Shown here: positions 22,294 to 29,448 of the stretch, one piece after another | Numbering within the stretch: position 1 is the stretch's first letter | Layout of the letters: every line of letters starts with the position of its first letter | Assembly (NCBI RefSeq): GCF_037031225.1 | Contig: NZ_JAYEZN010000001.1 | Coordinates: forward strand, 2,542,001 to 2,606,000 | Source: Halorientalis sp. LT38 | GTDB taxonomy: Archaea; Halobacteriota; Halobacteria; Halobacteriales; Haloarculaceae | Reading direction: 5' to 3' | DNA: 64,000 nucleotides | Program-made: the position numbers and the translations under genes | The notes under the pieces: generated by a model | Seen by the model: the letters and a program-made list of their open reading frames with translations, nothing else | What the model was told of the DNA's origin: nothing | Database searches by the model: none

Positions 22294-24657
22294 CTACCCG
22301 ACCCGATCCCCCGACGTGACGTTTCGCTCGCTCACGGTCACCGTCTCGTTCCAGAGCCGGTACTCGCCGGGGTAGGGGACGGTGACGGCGTACGCGCCGT
22401 CGGCGTCCGTCTCGACGGTTCGCTCGTAGGTGAACGACGCGCCGGGGATCTCGATCGACCGCGAGAGCGTCGTCGTGGCGTCGGGCGGGCCGGAGCCGGC
22501 GATCGTCGCCCCGGGGACGAGCCGGAAGGTCTTGTACTGGCCGTCTTCGGTGGCGTGGACGGCCCGGAAGTGCGACATGCCGGTAGCTGTGGAACTCTCG
22601 GTCCCGAAGCCGTCGTGGAGTCTGGGGAACAGCGACGCGGAACTGACGTTGCCGCCGGGAGCAGATTGCGTGACGACGTAGCCCACTCGATTGCGATGCT
22701 GACGGTACCACTGCGACTCGTTGGTCTCGGTGAACAGCGTCTCGTAGTGGTACCGAGCGTAGCTGTACGACCGCGACTCGCCGTTGACGAAGTAGTTGTA
22801 CACGCGGTTGCGGCCCCACTCGGTGAGGACGTAGTCGTCGGGGTAGCTCAGGTTGGCGACGCGGGCGTCCTCCTCGATCCAGGCCGCGGTCTCGTAGGTC
22901 CCGTCGGTGATCGTGATCTGGCTCGTCTTGATCGGCGTCTGGAGGACGCCGACGCCGCCGACGAGCAAAAAGAGCGCGAGGAGGAGGCCGGCCTCCCGCG
23001 CGGTCGGCACCCGGAGCGTCTCGAGACTGCCGTCGGCGGCTTCCGCACCTCTCGTGGCTCTCGGATCCGGCTTCTCGTCGGCGAAGGGCCGGGGCACCGA
23101 CGCGAGATCGACCCAGTGGGCCATCCAGACGAAGCCGAGGCCGCCGAAGAGGGCGGTGAACGCGGCGAGTTCGCCGACGAAGCGGACCTGGATCGCCGCG
23201 AGCGCGAGCAGGAACCAGGCGTAGACGCTGCCGATCAGCCACGGTTTCGCGCCGTCGGCGGCGCGTCTGCTGGCCCAGATTAATGGGGGGATCGCGATCA
23301 CGAGGACGAGGCCCAGCAACAGGAACCAGGTGAGATCGCCGCTGATCAGGGGTTGCGTCTCGACGATGTTCCGCGTGTCGAAGAAGCGGTCGAGTCGGCC
23401 GTCAGCCCGAGACCAGAAGTCAGGGACAACCGTGGGGACGAGGAAGAAGGCGGCGACAGCCCCGGCGAGCTCGGCCCCGACGAACGCAAGCGTGGGGAGG
23501 TCGAGCCGGTGGACGGCCTCGCCGATCGCGAGCACGCCCACGGTACCCGCGAGCAGCAACAGGGGGACGCCGACGACGAAGTCCGTGTGCCAGCCCATTT
23601 CGCCGTGGGCTCTGCGGACGACCAGTGTCGCGAACGCGAGGCCGCCGACGAGGGGTGCGTTCGCCAACACGGGTGATCGATCGGCGTCGACGTCCAGCAA
23701 GACGCCGAGGGCGACGACCAGCGCGACGGGTACGACCAGGGCGGTTCCGTTGTCCCAGGCCAGGATCTGTCCCGCGACCCCGACACCGATGCCAAGTCCT
23801 GCGAGCCAGGCGCGGGGGTCTCGGTACGCTTCTTCGCCCTGGTCCGCGAGGACGACGAGGGCGAAGGCTGCGAGGACGAGCCAGGGGTAGTCGAAGGCGT
23901 GGTGGTCGGCGAAGCCCAGACTCGTCCGGAGGGCGTGGGCGGGCGTCGTCGCCAGCAGGACGACCGCGGCCAGCCCCACGCGCCTGTCGTCGGTGAGCCT
24001 GACCGCGAGGAGGTAGAGCAATAAACCTGTGACGAGCGCCGAGACGACGGGGTACCACGCCATGACGGCGCCGGCCGCCGATGCGCCGTCACCGAGCAGG
24101 CCGGCGACCCAGTACAGCGTCGCGATAGTGAGCGGTTCACCCTGCGCCATCGGCATGTCGGTCAGGAGCGCGGCGTCGAAGCCCCCGCCCTCGGTCAGGA
24201 GTCCCTCGACGATATAGCGGTAGGCGTAGGGATCGTTTCCGGAGAGGACGACCGCGCCGTCGCGGAAGACCGAGCCGACGGAGAAGGCGGTTCTGAAGAG
24301 GACGACCACGGCGAGCGCGCCCGCGAGCGCCGCGACCCCTCGCCAGTCGGGGTCCGGAACCGCGATCGAGAGGTTCCGGCTCGGGTTTCGATCGTCTTCG
24401 ATATTCGTACCACCGGCGGTCCCCGGTTCCGCGTCGCCGTCGAGCGCCTGGAGGGTCGCGTCGGGGAGGCGGTACTCGCCGTCGACTTTTGCCACGAGGT
24501 CAGCGGCGACGAGTTCGCCGAAGGTGCCCGAGTCGACGGGGACGTCCTCGAAGGTCCAGGTGTCCATGTCGTCGTCGACGGGGCGAACGGAGTCGAGTGC
24601 GGACGCCAGCTCGGGACGCTCTGCGAGCGTCGCGGCGACGTCCCGCTCGTCGGCCAT
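22294..24657 (-). CDS. STT3/AglB-like membrane protein lacking the WWDYG motif
   Basis: A 787-residue protein. Residues 1-75 form a soluble winged-helix-like domain, 105-580 hold about thirteen membrane helices, and 580-787 form an outside soluble domain. Oligosaccharyltransferase-like features are GNDPYAYRYIVEG (140-152), DHHAFDYPW (251-259), NIVETQPL (430-437) and VRFVGELA (491-498). At the start of the soluble domain, where AglB has WWDYG, it reads VLTEWGRNRVYNYF (610-623). It is therefore either a diverged glycosyltransferase with another acceptor or an inactive paralogue. The C-terminus has a beta-rich carboxypeptidase-regulatory-like region. Confidence 0.72.
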   Translation of the reverse strand: MADERDVAATLAERPELASALDSVRPVDDDMDTWTFEDVPVDSGTFGELVAADLVAKVDGEYRLPDATLQALDGDAEPGTAGGTNIEDDRNPSRNLSIAVPDPDWRGVAALAGALAVVVLFRTAFSVGSVFRDGAVVLSGNDPYAYRYIVEGLLTEGGGFDAALLTDMPMAQGEPLTIATLYWVAGLLGDGASAAGAVMAWYPVVSALVTGLLLYLLAVRLTDDRRVGLAAVVLLATTPAHALRTSLGFADHHAFDYPWLVLAAFALVVLADQGEEAYRDPRAWLAGLGIGVGVAGQILAWDNGTALVVPVALVVALGVLLDVDADRSPVLANAPLVGGLAFATLVVRRAHGEMGWHTDFVVGVPLLLLAGTVGVLAIGEAVHRLDLPTLAFVGAELAGAVAAFFLVPTVVPDFWSRADGRLDRFFDTRNIVETQPLISGDLTWFLLLGLVLVIAIPPLIWASRRAADGAKPWLIGSVYAWFLLALAAIQVRFVGELAAFTALFGGLGFVWMAHWVDLASVPRPFADEKPDPRATRGAEAADGSLETLRVPTAREAGLLLALFLLVGGVGVLQTPIKTSQITITDGTYETAAWIEEDARVANLSYPDDYVLTEWGRNRVYNYFVNGESRSYSYARYHYETLFTETNESQWYRQHRNRVGYVVTQSAPGGNVSSASLFPRLHDGFGTESSTATGMSHFRAVHATEDGQYKTFRLVPGATIAGSGPPDATTTLSRSIEIPGASFTYERTVETDADGAYAVTVPYPGEYRLWNETVTVSERNVTSGDRVG

Positions 24658-24755: not shown

Positions 24756-25352
24756 ATGCGCCAGTTCCTCCTGCTGGGCCACCGCGTGCCGACGACGCCC
24801 GAGTTCTCCCTGGACGCGCTGCCGAGCGACGCCGGCAGACTCGACGTCCTCTGTCGGGCCGTGAGCGCCGCCTTCGTCCTGTCCCACGACATCCGCGAGG
24901 ACGTTCGCGTCCACCTCGTCCTGCAGGACGAGTTCACGATCACCTTCGAGGGAGCCGACCTGCGAAACCTCAACCCAGACGAGCGCAGCACGGCCGCCCT
25001 GATCCGCACGGCCCTGGAACACCGCGAGGACGCCATCGGCCACGTGGCCGCCGAGAGCTCACCCGGCGTCTCTATCTCCCGGAAGGGCCTGGAGACGACG
25101 CTCGCGGAGGCCGCCGAAGACAGCACCGTCGTATGCCTCCACGAGGACGGCGACCCCATCGTCGACGTCGACCCGCCCGAGGACTCCCTGTTCGTCCTCT
25201 CGGATCACGAGTCCTTCACCGACGCGGAGGCGGCCCTCGTCGACGAGCACGCCGACCATCGGTGTCGCCTCTCGCCGCGGGCGCTCCACGCCGACCACGC
25301 CGTCACCGTCGCGCACAACTACCTCGACACCGACGGTTTCCGACGGTTCTAA
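24756..25352 (+). CDS. trmY: tRNA (pseudouridine54-N1)-methyltransferase TrmY
   Basis: SPOUT-class enzyme that methylates pseudouridine 54 in the T-loop of archaeal tRNAs using S-adenosylmethionine. The 198-residue protein has the family start MRQFLLLGHRVPTTPEFSL and DVLCRAVSAAFVLSHDIREDV. The knot region runs from SISRKGLE to the end, with LFVLSDHESFTDAE and LSPRALHADHAVTVAHNYLD. Length and motifs match the archaeal family throughout. Confidence 0.9.
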   Translation: MRQFLLLGHRVPTTPEFSLDALPSDAGRLDVLCRAVSAAFVLSHDIREDVRVHLVLQDEFTITFEGADLRNLNPDERSTAALIRTALEHREDAIGHVAAESSPGVSISRKGLETTLAEAAEDSTVVCLHEDGDPIVDVDPPEDSLFVLSDHESFTDAEAALVDEHADHRCRLSPRALHADHAVTVAHNYLDTDGFRRF

Positions 25353-25372
25353 TCACGCCGCTCGATCCAGAA

Positions 25373-25380
25373 TTTTAAAT
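25373..25380 (+). promoter_or_regulatory. TATA-like box of the PKD-protein operon
   Basis: TTTTAAAT is centred 35 bp before the ATG at 25412, giving a short leader of roughly 9 nt for the two-gene unit 25412-27442. Confidence 0.45.
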
Positions 25381-25411
25381 ACCAGCACGCGACCAGTTCC
25401 GATCACGAGAC

Positions 25412-26467
25412 ATGTATCGGGGATTTCGGGGTGGGCTCGCCTTCCTGCTGGTGGTGGCGTCGCTGGCGCTGTCGGGCGTCGCCGCGGGCGCGGGGAACGA
25501 ACCACCGTTGGCGGACGCCGGCCTGGACCAGGCGGTCGCGGCGAACGAGACGGTCAGGCTGGACGCGACGGGGTCGCGAGACCCGGACGGTAACGTGACG
25601 GCCTACCAGTGGGAGATCGAGACGCCCGACGGGCGAACGGTGGCGCCGGACTGCCCCACCTGCGGGACCACGTCCTTCCGGCCGACGATGCCCGGGCGGT
25701 ACAACGTGACGGTCACGGTGACCGACGACGACAACGCCACTGCGTCGGACACCCTGTACCTCCGGGCCGAGGCGGTCGCGGGCCCCACCGTATCGCTGTC
25801 TGGTCCCACCTCGCCGTCGGTCGATCAGCCCGTCTACGGGGACGAGTTCTCGGACACGGTGCCATACGCGGCGAACCTCTCCAGCGGCGGGTACCCGATC
25901 GACCGCGTCGAGTGGCTGGTCGATGGCCAGCAGGTCGACCAAATGTCGGTCGACGGCTCGGCACCCGGCACGGTCCAGTTCAACCACACGATCGAGAACG
26001 AGTCACAGCGGACGCTCACGGCCAGGGTGGTCGACGTCAGCGGTCGGGTAGCGACCGACTCGCTATCGGTCACGCCGAACGCGGTGAGAGCATCCACGGG
26101 TTCCGCCGGGGGTGACGACGACGGAGAGACCTGGATGCAGGGCGAATTCGCTGGACAGGACGTGTCCTATAGACCGCCCACGCTCGATACCGAAACCGGG
26201 GAGATCGTCAGACGGGCCGACCCGACCGAGGAGGAGTACATGAACATCGCAGATGCAAGACCCGGTGAAGAGGTGCAAACGAGGTTCGGTGGGGATGATG
26301 AAGATGACAATGAAAATACTGGGAGTAATAATGACAATCCAAAGGACGGTATTAATCAAATAACCGACACTGTGAATACAGGATTTGGATTTGAAACCGA
26401 TCCTCTTGGGGGAAGTAACGATGAAAATGAACAGATAGATACCGATGATATATTCGGAGGGATATGA
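25412..26467 (+). CDS. Secreted PKD-domain protein with an AT-rich, acidic tail
   Basis: A 351-residue exported protein. Residues 1-26 are a signal peptide (FLLVVASLALSGVAAGA). Residues 28-125 form a PKD domain (PPLADAGLDQAV, DATGSRDPDGNVTAYQWEI, GRYNVTVTVTDDDN), and 126-220 look like a second Ig-like domain. The last 65 residues are low-complexity acidic and Asn-rich (DDEDDNENTGSNNDNP) and lie in DNA that turns abruptly AT-rich near 26280. The stop is directly followed by the ATG of the lipoprotein gene. The tail may be a recombinant graft (see findings). Confidence 0.8.
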   Translation: MYRGFRGGLAFLLVVASLALSGVAAGAGNEPPLADAGLDQAVAANETVRLDATGSRDPDGNVTAYQWEIETPDGRTVAPDCPTCGTTSFRPTMPGRYNVTVTVTDDDNATASDTLYLRAEAVAGPTVSLSGPTSPSVDQPVYGDEFSDTVPYAANLSSGGYPIDRVEWLVDGQQVDQMSVDGSAPGTVQFNHTIENESQRTLTARVVDVSGRVATDSLSVTPNAVRASTGSAGGDDDGETWMQGEFAGQDVSYRPPTLDTETGEIVRRADPTEEEYMNIADARPGEEVQTRFGGDDEDDNENTGSNNDNPKDGINQITDTVNTGFGFETDPLGGSNDENEQIDTDDIFGGI

Positions 26468-27290
26468 ATGAGTAACTTTGGCAAAAATGTTCTGTTGGTA
26501 TGCGTTTGCCTACTACTCGTTTTCGCCGGTTGTAGTAGCATTCAGAATATAGGGATGGAGACAGAGGTTGACACCACCGATAGTACAGAGAAAGAAACCA
26601 CTGACCGTACTCAAACCCCTAAGGATAACGAATCAGGCCAAAAACACAACAATAATATAAATAAATCAACACATTCTTATTACACGCTAAATTTCATATC
26701 TGAAATCAGAGACTCACCTATAAACATAACTACTATTGAAGAAGACGGGGACACTATTAGAGTCTCTTATGTTGGGAATTATAGTAATACCTCTAGAACA
26801 ACTTCGGAAATTATGTACTTAACGTCATCTTTCGCAAAAGTAGTAAATGAAAGCTATCATAATTCTTCAAACTGGAATATTTCTCGCCTTAATATTGAGG
26901 GGATGGCTGGAAATAACTCGGTCATTTGGGACACGATTACTGAAGACTGGTGGGCCATGAAATATGCCAAAAATAAATGGGACTTGATAAATTATCTCAA
27001 TGCAACTATTGCTACGGGTGACTTCTGGAATCTGCAGACGAACAATCCCCCTGAAGCCGGTGAAGAATACCTCTATGAAATTGAATATAAACTACAAAAC
27101 AAGTCAGACATTGATCTAAAATCGCTTCATAGGCATGGTGGGGATGCGTTTTTGGCTTATAGCACGGCCCACAAACCGAATTCCAGCAATTATTACTCCC
27201 AACTTGGAAACGTAACCCGAATATATCGGAATTTCACACTCCCACGCCGCCTCAACAAAACTGAGGGATGGTACGCTGGAGTGCTAAATA
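26280..27290. other. AT-rich island inside GC-rich chromosome
   Basis: Base composition drops sharply here, with runs of A/T and codons such as AAT, ATA and AAA that neighbours avoid, then returns to the GC-rich pattern within the last 50 codons of the gene ending at 27442. Both edges fall inside coding sequence. No terminal repeats, integrase or transposase accompany it. Confidence 0.75.
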
Positions 27291-27442
27291 TCGAGATCCA
27301 ACGAGGGAACGATACGGTGGAATGGTACCGGTACCAGATCCGGTGGGCAGAGGCGGAATCGAAAGGTGAGATCACGCGGGAGGACGAGGCAGCACTCCTC
27401 CGCAACTCTCGATTCGTCGAAAAAGACAAACTCCGGGATTAG
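26468..27442 (+). CDS. Putative lipoprotein of unknown function
   Basis: A 324-residue exported protein. The signal VLLVCVCLLLVFAGC ends in a lipobox (AGC, Cys at 22), followed by a Thr/Ser/Asn-rich linker and a soluble domain with aromatic strands (TEDWWAMKYAKNKWDLINYL, TRIYRNFTLPRRLN). Many NxS/T sequons suggest surface glycosylation. No family is recognised. It begins immediately after the PKD gene stop and probably forms a surface pair with it. Codon use is AT-rich except for the last 45-50 codons, indicating foreign origin or chimerism. Confidence 0.75.
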   Translation: MSNFGKNVLLVCVCLLLVFAGCSSIQNIGMETEVDTTDSTEKETTDRTQTPKDNESGQKHNNNINKSTHSYYTLNFISEIRDSPINITTIEEDGDTIRVSYVGNYSNTSRTTSEIMYLTSSFAKVVNESYHNSSNWNISRLNIEGMAGNNSVIWDTITEDWWAMKYAKNKWDLINYLNATIATGDFWNLQTNNPPEAGEEYLYEIEYKLQNKSDIDLKSLHRHGGDAFLAYSTAHKPNSSNYYSQLGNVTRIYRNFTLPRRLNKTEGWYAGVLNIEIQRGNDTVEWYRYQIRWAEAESKGEITREDEAALLRNSRFVEKDKLRD

Positions 27443-27483
27443 ACCCATTGCGAGAAATCAAGTAACTGATTTCGAAACCAGGC

Positions 27484-27945
27484 TCACTCTAGAACGCCAG
27501 CGTCCTCCAGATACGCCTCGACGTACGGGTGCAGATCGAACTCGAACGGCGGCGAGACGGTCCGGATCGAACTGTGCTGGTCGTCGGGCCGCAACTCGCT
27601 GCCCTCCTCGGGCCGGACGTGAAACCCGATGGGGACGTAGTGCTTGCCGCCGACGTCGTCGAGTTCCGCGGTATCGTAGAAGTGTTCGTAGACGCCCAGC
27701 TGGCGCTCGACGGTGACGTTGCAGCCCAGCTCCGCGGCCGCCACCCGGTCGACGGCGTCGGTCAACGACTCGTGCTTGTGGGCGCGGCCGCCGGGCACGA
27801 ACCACTCGCCTTTCGCGGGGTCGTTCTCCCGCTTGCCCAGCACGACGCCGTCGTCGGTCTCGACGACGAGATCGACCGACACGAGAGGCACGTTGCGGAC
27901 GATCGTCTCCCACTCCCCTGCCGGGACCGGTGCGTTGTCGCTCAT
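27484..27945 (-). CDS. NUDIX hydrolase, GDP-mannose mannosyl hydrolase-like
   Basis: A 153-residue NUDIX protein close to the GDP-mannose mannosyl hydrolase (Gmm) subgroup. It has VRNVPLVSVDLVVE, GKRENDPAKGEWFVPGGR and the variant NUDIX box KHESLTDAVDRVAAAELGC, which lacks the canonical second REUxEE glutamate, as in Gmm enzymes. YEHFYD supplies the substrate-loop tyrosine and histidine. It would hydrolyse GDP-mannose or GDP-glucose to GDP and sugar, tuning nucleotide-sugar pools. Upstream in-frame starts at 27984 and 28026 exist; 27945 gives the usual family length. Confidence 0.84.
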   Translation of the reverse strand: MSDNAPVPAGEWETIVRNVPLVSVDLVVETDDGVVLGKRENDPAKGEWFVPGGRAHKHESLTDAVDRVAAAELGCNVTVERQLGVYEHFYDTAELDDVGGKHYVPIGFHVRPEEGSELRPDDQHSSIRTVSPPFEFDLHPYVEAYLEDAGVLE

Positions 27946-28037
27946 GCGAGCGACGGCGTCCCCCACCCTCTTCGGGGTTGCCATCTTGGCAACACGGGGG
28001 GTCGGTGACGTACCAACCGGGTGCACGAACGACCGTG

Positions 28038-28293: not shown

Positions 28294-28806
28294 CTACTCG
28301 TCGACGCTGACGAACTCGATCTCGTCGGTGTCGGTGTCGAGCACCGCAACGCTGCGGTACTGCTCGGGAACGGTGGGGAAGTGCGCGCCGGGGTTGACGA
28401 CGGTCGTGTCGCCGACGGAGCGCTCTTCGGCCACGTGGAAGTGGCCGTAGCAGACGTAGTCGTAGCCGCCGGATTCGGCGCGGCTGTTGACTTCCTCGAG
28501 GCCCTGATCGCCGTGGAGGACGTGGACCTCGGTTCCGTCGAACGTCAGGTCGGCGTAGCGGCCGTGGAGTTGGCTATCGTCGCTGAGGTCCTCGATCGTC
28601 TGCTCTAGCCCGTCGAGTTCGCCGTCGTTGTTCCCGAGGACGCCGTGGAGGTCGAACCCGTGGCCCTCGAAGGCCGCGAGCAGCGGCGGGGCGACGAAGT
28701 CGCCGCAGTGGACGACGGTGTCGATCCCCCGGTCGGCGAAGACCGCGGCTATCGCCTCGGCCGCGGCGTAGTTGTCGTGCGTGTCGGAGACGATGCCTAC
28801 CTGCAT
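28294..28806 (-). CDS. YfcE/MJ0936-type phosphodiesterase
   Basis: A 170-residue calcineurin-like metallophosphoesterase. Metal motifs in order are GIVSDTHDN (residues 4-12), VVHCGDFV, GVLGNNDGE, VHVLHGDQG and YVCYGHFHV, followed by NPGAHF. That is the full set for a two-metal phosphodiesterase. Relatives cleave model phosphodiesters in vitro; the natural substrate is unknown. It stands alone on the minus strand. Confidence 0.87.
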   Translation of the reverse strand: MQVGIVSDTHDNYAAAEAIAAVFADRGIDTVVHCGDFVAPPLLAAFEGHGFDLHGVLGNNDGELDGLEQTIEDLSDDSQLHGRYADLTFDGTEVHVLHGDQGLEEVNSRAESGGYDYVCYGHFHVAEERSVGDTTVVNPGAHFPTVPEQYRSVAVLDTDTDEIEFVSVDE

Positions 28807-29053: not shown

Positions 29054-29126
29054 GGGCCGGTGGGGTAGCTTGGTATCCTTCGGCCTTCGGGTGGCCGTAA
29101 CCGCAGTTCGAATCTGCGCCGGCCCA
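29054..29126 (+). tRNA. tRNA-Pro (anticodon CGG)
   Basis: A 73-nt cloverleaf without intron. The acceptor GGGCCGG (29054-29060) pairs with CCGGCCC (29119-29125), with A as discriminator. The anticodon arm CGGCC/GGCCG holds the loop TTCGGGT, giving anticodon CGG with G37, as expected for proline. The T-arm CGCAG/CTGCG encloses TTCGAAT. CCA is not encoded; a T-run (29127-29131) follows and may end transcription. Confidence 0.92.
29106..29126 (+). repeat. tRNA-Pro 3'-end repeat, copy 1 (inside the tRNA gene)
   Basis: This 21-nt segment (T-arm through discriminator, GTTCGAATCTGCGCCGGCCC plus A) is the source of two degraded downstream copies, as at integration sites of elements that use tRNA 3' ends. 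Confidence 0.6.
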
Positions 29127-29250: not shown

Positions 29251-29272
29251 GTTCGACATCTGCGCCGGCCCA
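29251..29272 (+). repeat. tRNA-Pro 3'-end repeat, copy 2
   Basis: GTTCGACATCTGCGCCGGCC followed by CA: identical to the tRNA 3' end apart from one inserted C in the T-loop. It is followed by CTTTTGCGACGCG, similar to the flank of copy 1 (TTTTTACGCGACGC). Confidence 0.6.
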
Positions 29273-29373
29273 CTTTTGCGACGCGAGTAACTCCGTGAGC
29301 GGCGCACCCGTGCGAGGCGCAGATTCGAGCAGGGTGGTCCCAGCGCGAACGGAGTGAGCGACCGTCTTCCCGT

Positions 29374-29395
29374 CTTCGACATCTGTGCCGGCCCA
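29374..29395 (+). repeat. tRNA-Pro 3'-end repeat, copy 3
   Basis: CTTCGACATCTGTGCCGGCC followed by CA. It shares the T-loop inserted C with copy 2 and has two further base differences from it. It is followed by TTTTCACG. The shared insertion suggests copies 2 and 3 derive from each other. Confidence 0.55.
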
Positions 29396-29448
29396 TTTTC
29401 ACGGGAGGTTGAGACGATGAGCGGAGCGGACCGTTGCTGTACCGTCAG

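Follow-up and report, generated by a model that had tools for sequence, protein, structure and literature searches.

Polymorphic toxin systems combine a constant head with a variable end and a co-varying next gene. This organisation has also been described in the work on VARTIG (Makarova et al. 2021, PMC8416519), a module of the Thermococcales in which the upstream protein is a large Ig protein (arCOG07710). The authors looked in particular for large Ig proteins of 1000 aa or more, and that account reports no counterparts outside the Thermococcales. In haloarchaea, replacement flexible genomic islands such as the Haloquadratum cell-wall island GI1 are multi-gene segments, sampled on fosmids of 36-42 kb, in which strains of one species differ; homologous recombination via conserved flanks has been described for them and phage avoidance has been proposed as their role (PMC4535781, PMC4033161). 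Exchange of surface determinants in Haloferax, namely of the S-layer glycoprotein and the agl glycosylation clusters, was proposed to affect both virus sensitivity and mating (PMC5867893).

The locus of Halorientalis sp. LT38 presented here resembles VARTIG, as characterised in the account cited, in having an Ig-fold surface protein upstream with a constant N part and a hypervariable 3' part, variable downstream genes, and in-place exchange between species rather than within a genome. Its host does not belong to the Thermococcales, and its upstream gene encodes a PKD protein of 351 aa with a head of about 220 aa. The variable part in VARTIG is described as a C-terminal Ig domain, whereas here it is the conserved head that holds the Ig-like domains, and the tail is predicted to be disordered. 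Some of the VARTIG downstream genes carry Ig domains; in Halorientalis it is an acidic tail and a genus-wide homologous lipoprotein that vary, and the highly variable downstream lipoprotein has no Pfam Ig match and a poor fold model. Unlike in that account of VARTIG, one exchanged tract could be mapped here at the nucleotide level. The locus works like VARTIG but is not a member of it. With the flexible islands it shares probable surface genes of different content at the same site between conserved flanks (PMC4535781, PMC4033161), but the Halorientalis cassette measures only about 1.1 kb, has both its edges in genes and was compared between species. The likeness to Haloferax lies in the exchange of surface determinants between lineages, although the variation set out there does not take the form of an AT-rich unit with a constant head and a variable tail (PMC5867893). 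The literature on haloarchaeal and archaeal PKD, lipoprotein, hypervariable and cassette loci, searched by title and start of abstract and with subscription papers mostly outside its scope, gave no match. Interspecies replacement of a surface-gene cassette is in itself a process of a known type.

The PKD-lipoprotein locus and its AT-rich stretch

The window is the whole stretch of 64,000 nucleotides that was analysed (contig NZ_JAYEZN010000001.1, positions 2,542,001 to 2,606,000). Its features at and around the locus are as follows, in window positions.

22294..24657, minus strand: AglB/STT3-type oligosaccharyltransferase (Pfam STT3 and AglB_L1), 5' flank context
24756..25352, plus strand: TrmY-type RNA methyltransferase (Pfam PF04013), conserved 5' neighbour
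25353..27483, no strand: PKD plus lipoprotein insert of 2.13 kb between TrmY and Nudix, its site empty in two congeners
25412-26467, plus strand: PKD protein, whole gene, 351 aa
25412..26071, plus strand: conserved GC-rich head of the PKD protein, with a signal-like N-terminal segment, PKD (Pfam PKD_4) and a second Ig-like domain
26072..26281, plus strand: linker of the PKD protein, two sequence groups among species, approximate 5' crossover zone
26282..26467, plus strand: acidic Asn-rich tail of the PKD protein, predicted disordered, variable, AT-rich, GC3 0.30
26187..27326, no strand: counterpart of the tract that H. regularis and H. persicus have exchanged, transferred approximately via codon numbers
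26468-27442, plus strand: lipoprotein, whole gene, 324 aa, directly after the PKD protein
26468..27118, plus strand: N part of the lipoprotein, with lipobox FAGC, stalk and first ectodomain part, variable, AT-rich, GC3 0.38
27119..27442, plus strand: C part of the lipoprotein, genus-conserved, with a GC3 that increases to 0.57 and the approximate 3' crossover zone at about 27,320
27484..28026, minus strand: Nudix hydrolase (Pfam NUDIX), conserved 3' neighbour
28294..28806, minus strand: YfcE-like phosphoesterase (Pfam Metallophos_2), conserved 3' flank context

Between about 26,000 and 27,300, the GC content falls from 0.64-0.70 to 0.33-0.45. A fit with two change points gave a GC of 0.415 inside and 0.672 outside the trough (LLR 114.5); within 3 lnL, it places the start in the range 26,220-26,307 and allows 27,226-27,526 for the end. 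The 5' edge is sharp and lies inside the PKD gene, while the 3' edge is a ramp in the 3' end of the lipoprotein gene, the GC3 of which is 0.38 over codons ~1-217 but 0.57 over the final ~107. The 1-kb trough, with a GC of 0.39 against a sampled mean of 0.675 (sd 0.042), was the sole place with a GC below 0.47 among 3,878 one-kb windows in the 404 kb sampled (17 pieces of 20 kb plus the window, from a genome of 3.58 Mb), and it is therefore not a matter of chance composition. An abrupt AT-rich segment at 26255-27330 had been proposed in the initial annotation; the trough was confirmed and these edges fit the change-point ranges. The abrupt edge in the PKD gene was borne out as well, but a return to normal composition within the last codons of the lipoprotein proved too narrow a description of the ramp. 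Both reading frames stay open across the edges, as had been noted.

In relatives, the frames of the PKD protein and the lipoprotein overlap at their junction, where the PKD C-terminal CPIC and the lipoprotein start MSNML share overlapping DNA (L038 10640-10670). There is no overlap in the window genome: the PKD protein ends in GGI and a stop, followed by the ATG of the lipoprotein. The CxIC sequence conserved at the C-terminus of the tail in relatives was considered as a motif and rejected as a product of the overlap with the lipoprotein start codons.

The same locus in other Halorientalis species

All comparisons were made between species, with one genome per species. The relatives named at the locus are Halorientalis pallida, H. 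persicus (G005), H. regularis (G002) and Halorientalis sp. LUM.68; G003 is a further congener. Among eight genomes of the genus, four besides the window genome carry a close relative of the lipoprotein (45-49 % identity), H. pallida adds one more, and two further matches in genus genomes were weak. G002, G003 and G005 have retained the order TrmY - PKD - lipoprotein - Nudix - YfcE, as has G007, in which it is split over two contigs with a 149-nt overlap within the PKD gene. The AglB flank has the same order in the first three and on the upstream contig of G007, and TrmY is 82-93 % identical at the amino acid level among six species. In the five genomes compared, the lipoprotein has a GC3 of 0.44-0.47 vs 0.78-0.94 in the neighbouring genes, and that of its N part is 0.30-0.38 in all six Halorientalis alleles. 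The AT-richness is thus old and a property of the locus, because all Halorientalis alleles compared, and 43 of 47 haloarchaeal loci considered below, are AT-rich at this place.

TrmY and Nudix are separated by only 12 and 17 nt in G004 and G006, while the PKD-lipoprotein pair occupies this site in six species, with an insert size of 2.1 kb in the four species measured. In G004 and G006, a PKD-lipoprotein pair adjoins pyrG instead, and its lipoprotein could be linked by profile to P0002, the lipoprotein of the window (E 8e-7 for G004; E 2e-5 after one iteration for G006), as could that of G001 (E 8e-10). The pair changes place as well. A reciprocal look for an empty site at pyrG was set aside, since some 47 kb separate pyrG from the second flanking gene in the window genome. 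Further downstream in the window, the 3' end of tRNA-Pro(CGG) (29054-29126) is repeated at 29258-29283 and 29381-29406 (81 % and 88 % over 26 nt); these repeats could have been left by integrations at the tRNA. The GC content is also lower at 29.6-30.3 kb, 3' of the repeats.

Exchange was resolved in the case of H. regularis and H. persicus. In an alignment of four species, the flanks of these two are mostly ~77-95 % identical and the AT-rich stretch is 95-99 % identical. Compared with G003, either of them is mostly ~75-95 % identical outside and ~47-58 % across most of the AT-rich stretch, and identities in such barely alignable cassettes (45-65 %) are partly an effect of alignment optimisation. 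Synonymous divergence between H. regularis and H. persicus amounts to a dS of 0.44 in AglB, 0.31 in TrmY, 0.40 in the PKD head and 0.28 in the linker on the 5' side, drops to 0.00 for the PKD tail and to 0.06 for the N part of the lipoprotein, and is again 0.30 in the lipoprotein C part, 0.48 in Nudix and 0.22 in YfcE on the 3' side. A difference scan delimited the similar tract to L038 10372-11512, with 25 of 1,140 nt differing inside and 246 of 1,988 outside (LLR 57.4; best of 500 permutations 10.1). Transferred to the window, its edges lie at about 26,120-26,190 and ~27,320, near those of the initial annotation. The annotation's view of a recombination that took the terminal part of the PKD gene together with most of the lipoprotein gene was supported: they are replaced as one unit, with both edges in genes. 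Over 87.7 kb of aligned DNA, the two genomes have a mean identity of 0.902, and the 1.3 % of 784 windows that reach 0.97 are located at the cassette and one other place only. That other place (L093 15200-17000; G005:C64) has a GC of 0.55 and no Rfam match.

The linkers of G002, G003 and G005 are alike and those of H. pallida and G007 stand apart, while the lipoprotein N parts group G002, G005 and G007 vs G003 and H. pallida; the region is therefore mosaic. For the cassette of the window genome itself, no close relative, donor or shared allele was present among the genomes compared. It had been suggested that relatives carrying the same AT-rich segment with normal divergence would speak against recombination; the segment is indeed there, but its divergence departs widely from the normal, to the low side as well as the high.

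Cassettes beyond Halorientalis and the alternatives to exchange

At E<=1e-20, a profile of the PKD head had matches in 83 of the 242 haloarchaeal genomes and 32 of 74 genera, in a family that includes proteins of ~900-1200 aa with C-terminal parts that may be ordinary conserved domains. Exactly one match was obtained in 81 of the 83 genomes. A trough, taken as a GC fall of >0.12, immediately follows the head in 25 of 29 loci (one of 30, L012, was too short and left out) and in all 18 new loci scored out of 30 from the PKD-head profile; a drop upstream was seen in 3 of the 47 (1 of 29 and 2 of 18). L047, L049 and L055 have the same PKD head in proteins of ~1,120 aa with another AT-rich ORF behind; this subfamily may be a different module. 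In other genera, the exchanged stretch contains other downstream proteins, some plus an extra membrane protein, and the homology of downstream proteins outside the genus to P0002 was not clearly above that of shuffled controls.

A second genus of the same family (g6) has the locus in 14 syntenic species, which form 91 pairs. After omission of 24 pairs with flanks <0.83, 63 of the remaining 67 have a cassette identity >0.15 below that of the flank, and the other 4 are at or above the flank minus 0.02, so that the divergence falls into two classes. The 14 species carry 11 allele groups. Three pairs with flanks of ~0.95 have cassettes of only 0.61-0.68. G195 and G137 have a common allele (cassette 0.965, flank 0.915), yet the cassettes of G195 and G184 are 0.623 identical with closer flanks (0.945). 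Over the 91 pairs, the identities of tail and lipoprotein N part are correlated with r=0.92, those of flank and tail with r=0.72. The allele common to G119, G032 and G141 (L146, L144 and L149) has a GC of ~0.55 vs ~0.48 in most other g6 alleles, which is what a gain of GC by recombining alleles would predict. In a third genus, G031 and either G099 or G148 have flanks of ~0.95 and a cassette identity down to ~0.45. Between G012 and G236, ~95 % identical over 160 kb, two of the alignment gaps are two-sided replacements of at least 1 kb, the cassette among them. The second exchanged segment (L167; G012:C25 132568-136212) is an AT-rich (~0.38) stretch of 3.6 kb where G236 has 1.5 kb of different sequence. 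G014 and G033, which do not have shared context, were left out of the cassette evidence.

Taken together, the AT-rich stretch is very probably an allelic cassette that has been replaced between species via homologous recombination in conserved flanks. The initial annotation had read the AT-rich stretch as a graft, and low GC on its own would suggest a recent entry of foreign AT-rich DNA, from a virus, a plasmid or a distant archaeon, into the window genome. The singularity of the trough in the sampled 404 kb and the two congeners with an empty site favour such an event, but the pair also occupies this site in five other Halorientalis genomes, with a lipoprotein N-part GC3 of 0.30-0.36, and the trough recurs behind the head in nearly all haloarchaeal loci scored. 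Relatives of the lipoprotein were found in none of the viral contigs, plasmids or phages searched and relatives of the PKD protein in none of the plasmids, so that the proposed search for an origin there came up empty. The shared AT-richness already largely refutes a recent foreign graft, which we consider very unlikely. If tail and lipoprotein simply evolved very fast in AT-biased DNA, because selection is relaxed or positive and with no recombination at all, this would account for the saturated divergence between most alleles and for acidic tails that look unconstrained; such a course is hard to reconcile with the collapse of dS inside the tract of one species pair, the two-class distribution in g6 and allele sharing out of step with the flanks, and is very improbable.

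Programmed variation in one genome, by silent cassettes or a diversity-generating retroelement, would suit the cassette-like anatomy and its fixed borders. P0002, however, is present only once in the window genome, as is a strong match to the PKD head; the multiple donor copies of vls- or pilin-type systems are absent, and this is not switching from silent cassettes. The genome also has no reverse transcriptase (PF00078), the cassette edges have no strong repeats, just a 17-nt inverted pair of 82 %, and none of the four neighbouring genes checked encodes a recombinase. The chance of this alternative is minimal. A polymorphic toxin/immunity pair, in which a variable C-terminal effector would be delivered by the PKD head, with the lipoprotein as cognate immunity protein, matches the constant head, the variable end and the next gene that co-varies with it in g6, and the layout resembles that of polymorphic toxins and VARTIG as described in PMC8416519. 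Yet the tail is short, acidic, predicted to be disordered and devoid of a domain, physical linkage also predicts co-variation, and Pfam, NCBIfam and PADLOC recognised no toxin, immunity or defence family in P0001, P0002 or five downstream proteins. A toxin/immunity pair is therefore unlikely.

Probable surface role, proposed mechanism and meaning

The PKD head was modelled by AF2 with a pLDDT of mostly 80-90 over residues 61-220, as two Ig-like domains; with low TM-scores, it resembles proteins of adhesins, S-layers and biofilms. Each of the six lipoprotein alleles contains 16-17 N-x-S/T sequons vs 4.3-6.6 expected by shuffling, with 6 of 34 sequon positions common to all alleles, and no such excess was present in the cytosolic neighbours tested. 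Because of the lipobox, the PKD domain and the sequons, the lipoprotein and the PKD head are probably surface-exposed, and the module would suit recognition at an exposed surface that selection diversifies, in line with what has been argued for surface islands of haloarchaea (PMC4535781, PMC4033161, PMC5867893); it may function as a phage receptor or in self-recognition. The lipoprotein could be assigned to no named family: its sole Pfam match fell short of the cut-off and extends over signal and stalk, and a PHROGs match (E 0.067) spans only these. A weak PDB sequence match (E 0.63) and Foldseek matches (best E 5e-3) to a model that was too poor (mean pLDDT 49) were set aside, as was an internal duplication with scores overlapping those of shuffled controls.

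In-place exchange of the cassette probably works as follows. A secreted PKD/Ig-like protein and the sequon-rich lipoprotein directly 3' of it, with frames adjacent or overlapping, form a two-gene surface module, in which the cassette begins where the PKD head ends and stops shortly before the lipoprotein does. Homologous recombination between species would replace it in place, with crossovers in conserved and more GC-rich sequence: the PKD head or linker on the 5' side and the lipoprotein C part plus the next gene on the 3' side. Diversifying selection at the cell surface, by phage attachment or cell recognition, would favour different alleles, and the PKD tail and the lipoprotein would be matched partners. 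The low GC may persist since alleles too diverged for internal recombination would escape GC-raising conversion or selection. A result in Haloferax, according to which GC content might not steer conversion (PMC8223754), speaks against the simple form of this idea.

In conclusion, genomes carry one PKD-head gene, with alleles that occur in place and have intragenic edges, and the window genome has no second copy; the alleles have been shared recently between species, and their divergence is of two classes. The route by homologous recombination, diversifying selection, the matching of tail and lipoprotein, and the cause of the persistent low GC are what we infer from these patterns. Tentatively, the locus might be the haloarchaeal equivalent of VARTIG, a recognition locus present once per genome and in many alleles, whose tail and lipoprotein would be passed on together as matched partners and set which cells (mating partners, kin) or viruses are engaged, its alleles forming a between-species pool.

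A compact surface locus diversified by between-species exchange is now at hand in archaea outside the Thermococcales, with one exchanged tract that can be read at the nucleotide level and many alleles per genus. Two questions thereby become testable in culturable organisms: what haloarchaeal cells rely on to distinguish partners or viruses, and what keeps certain loci AT-rich in GC-rich genomes in the long term.
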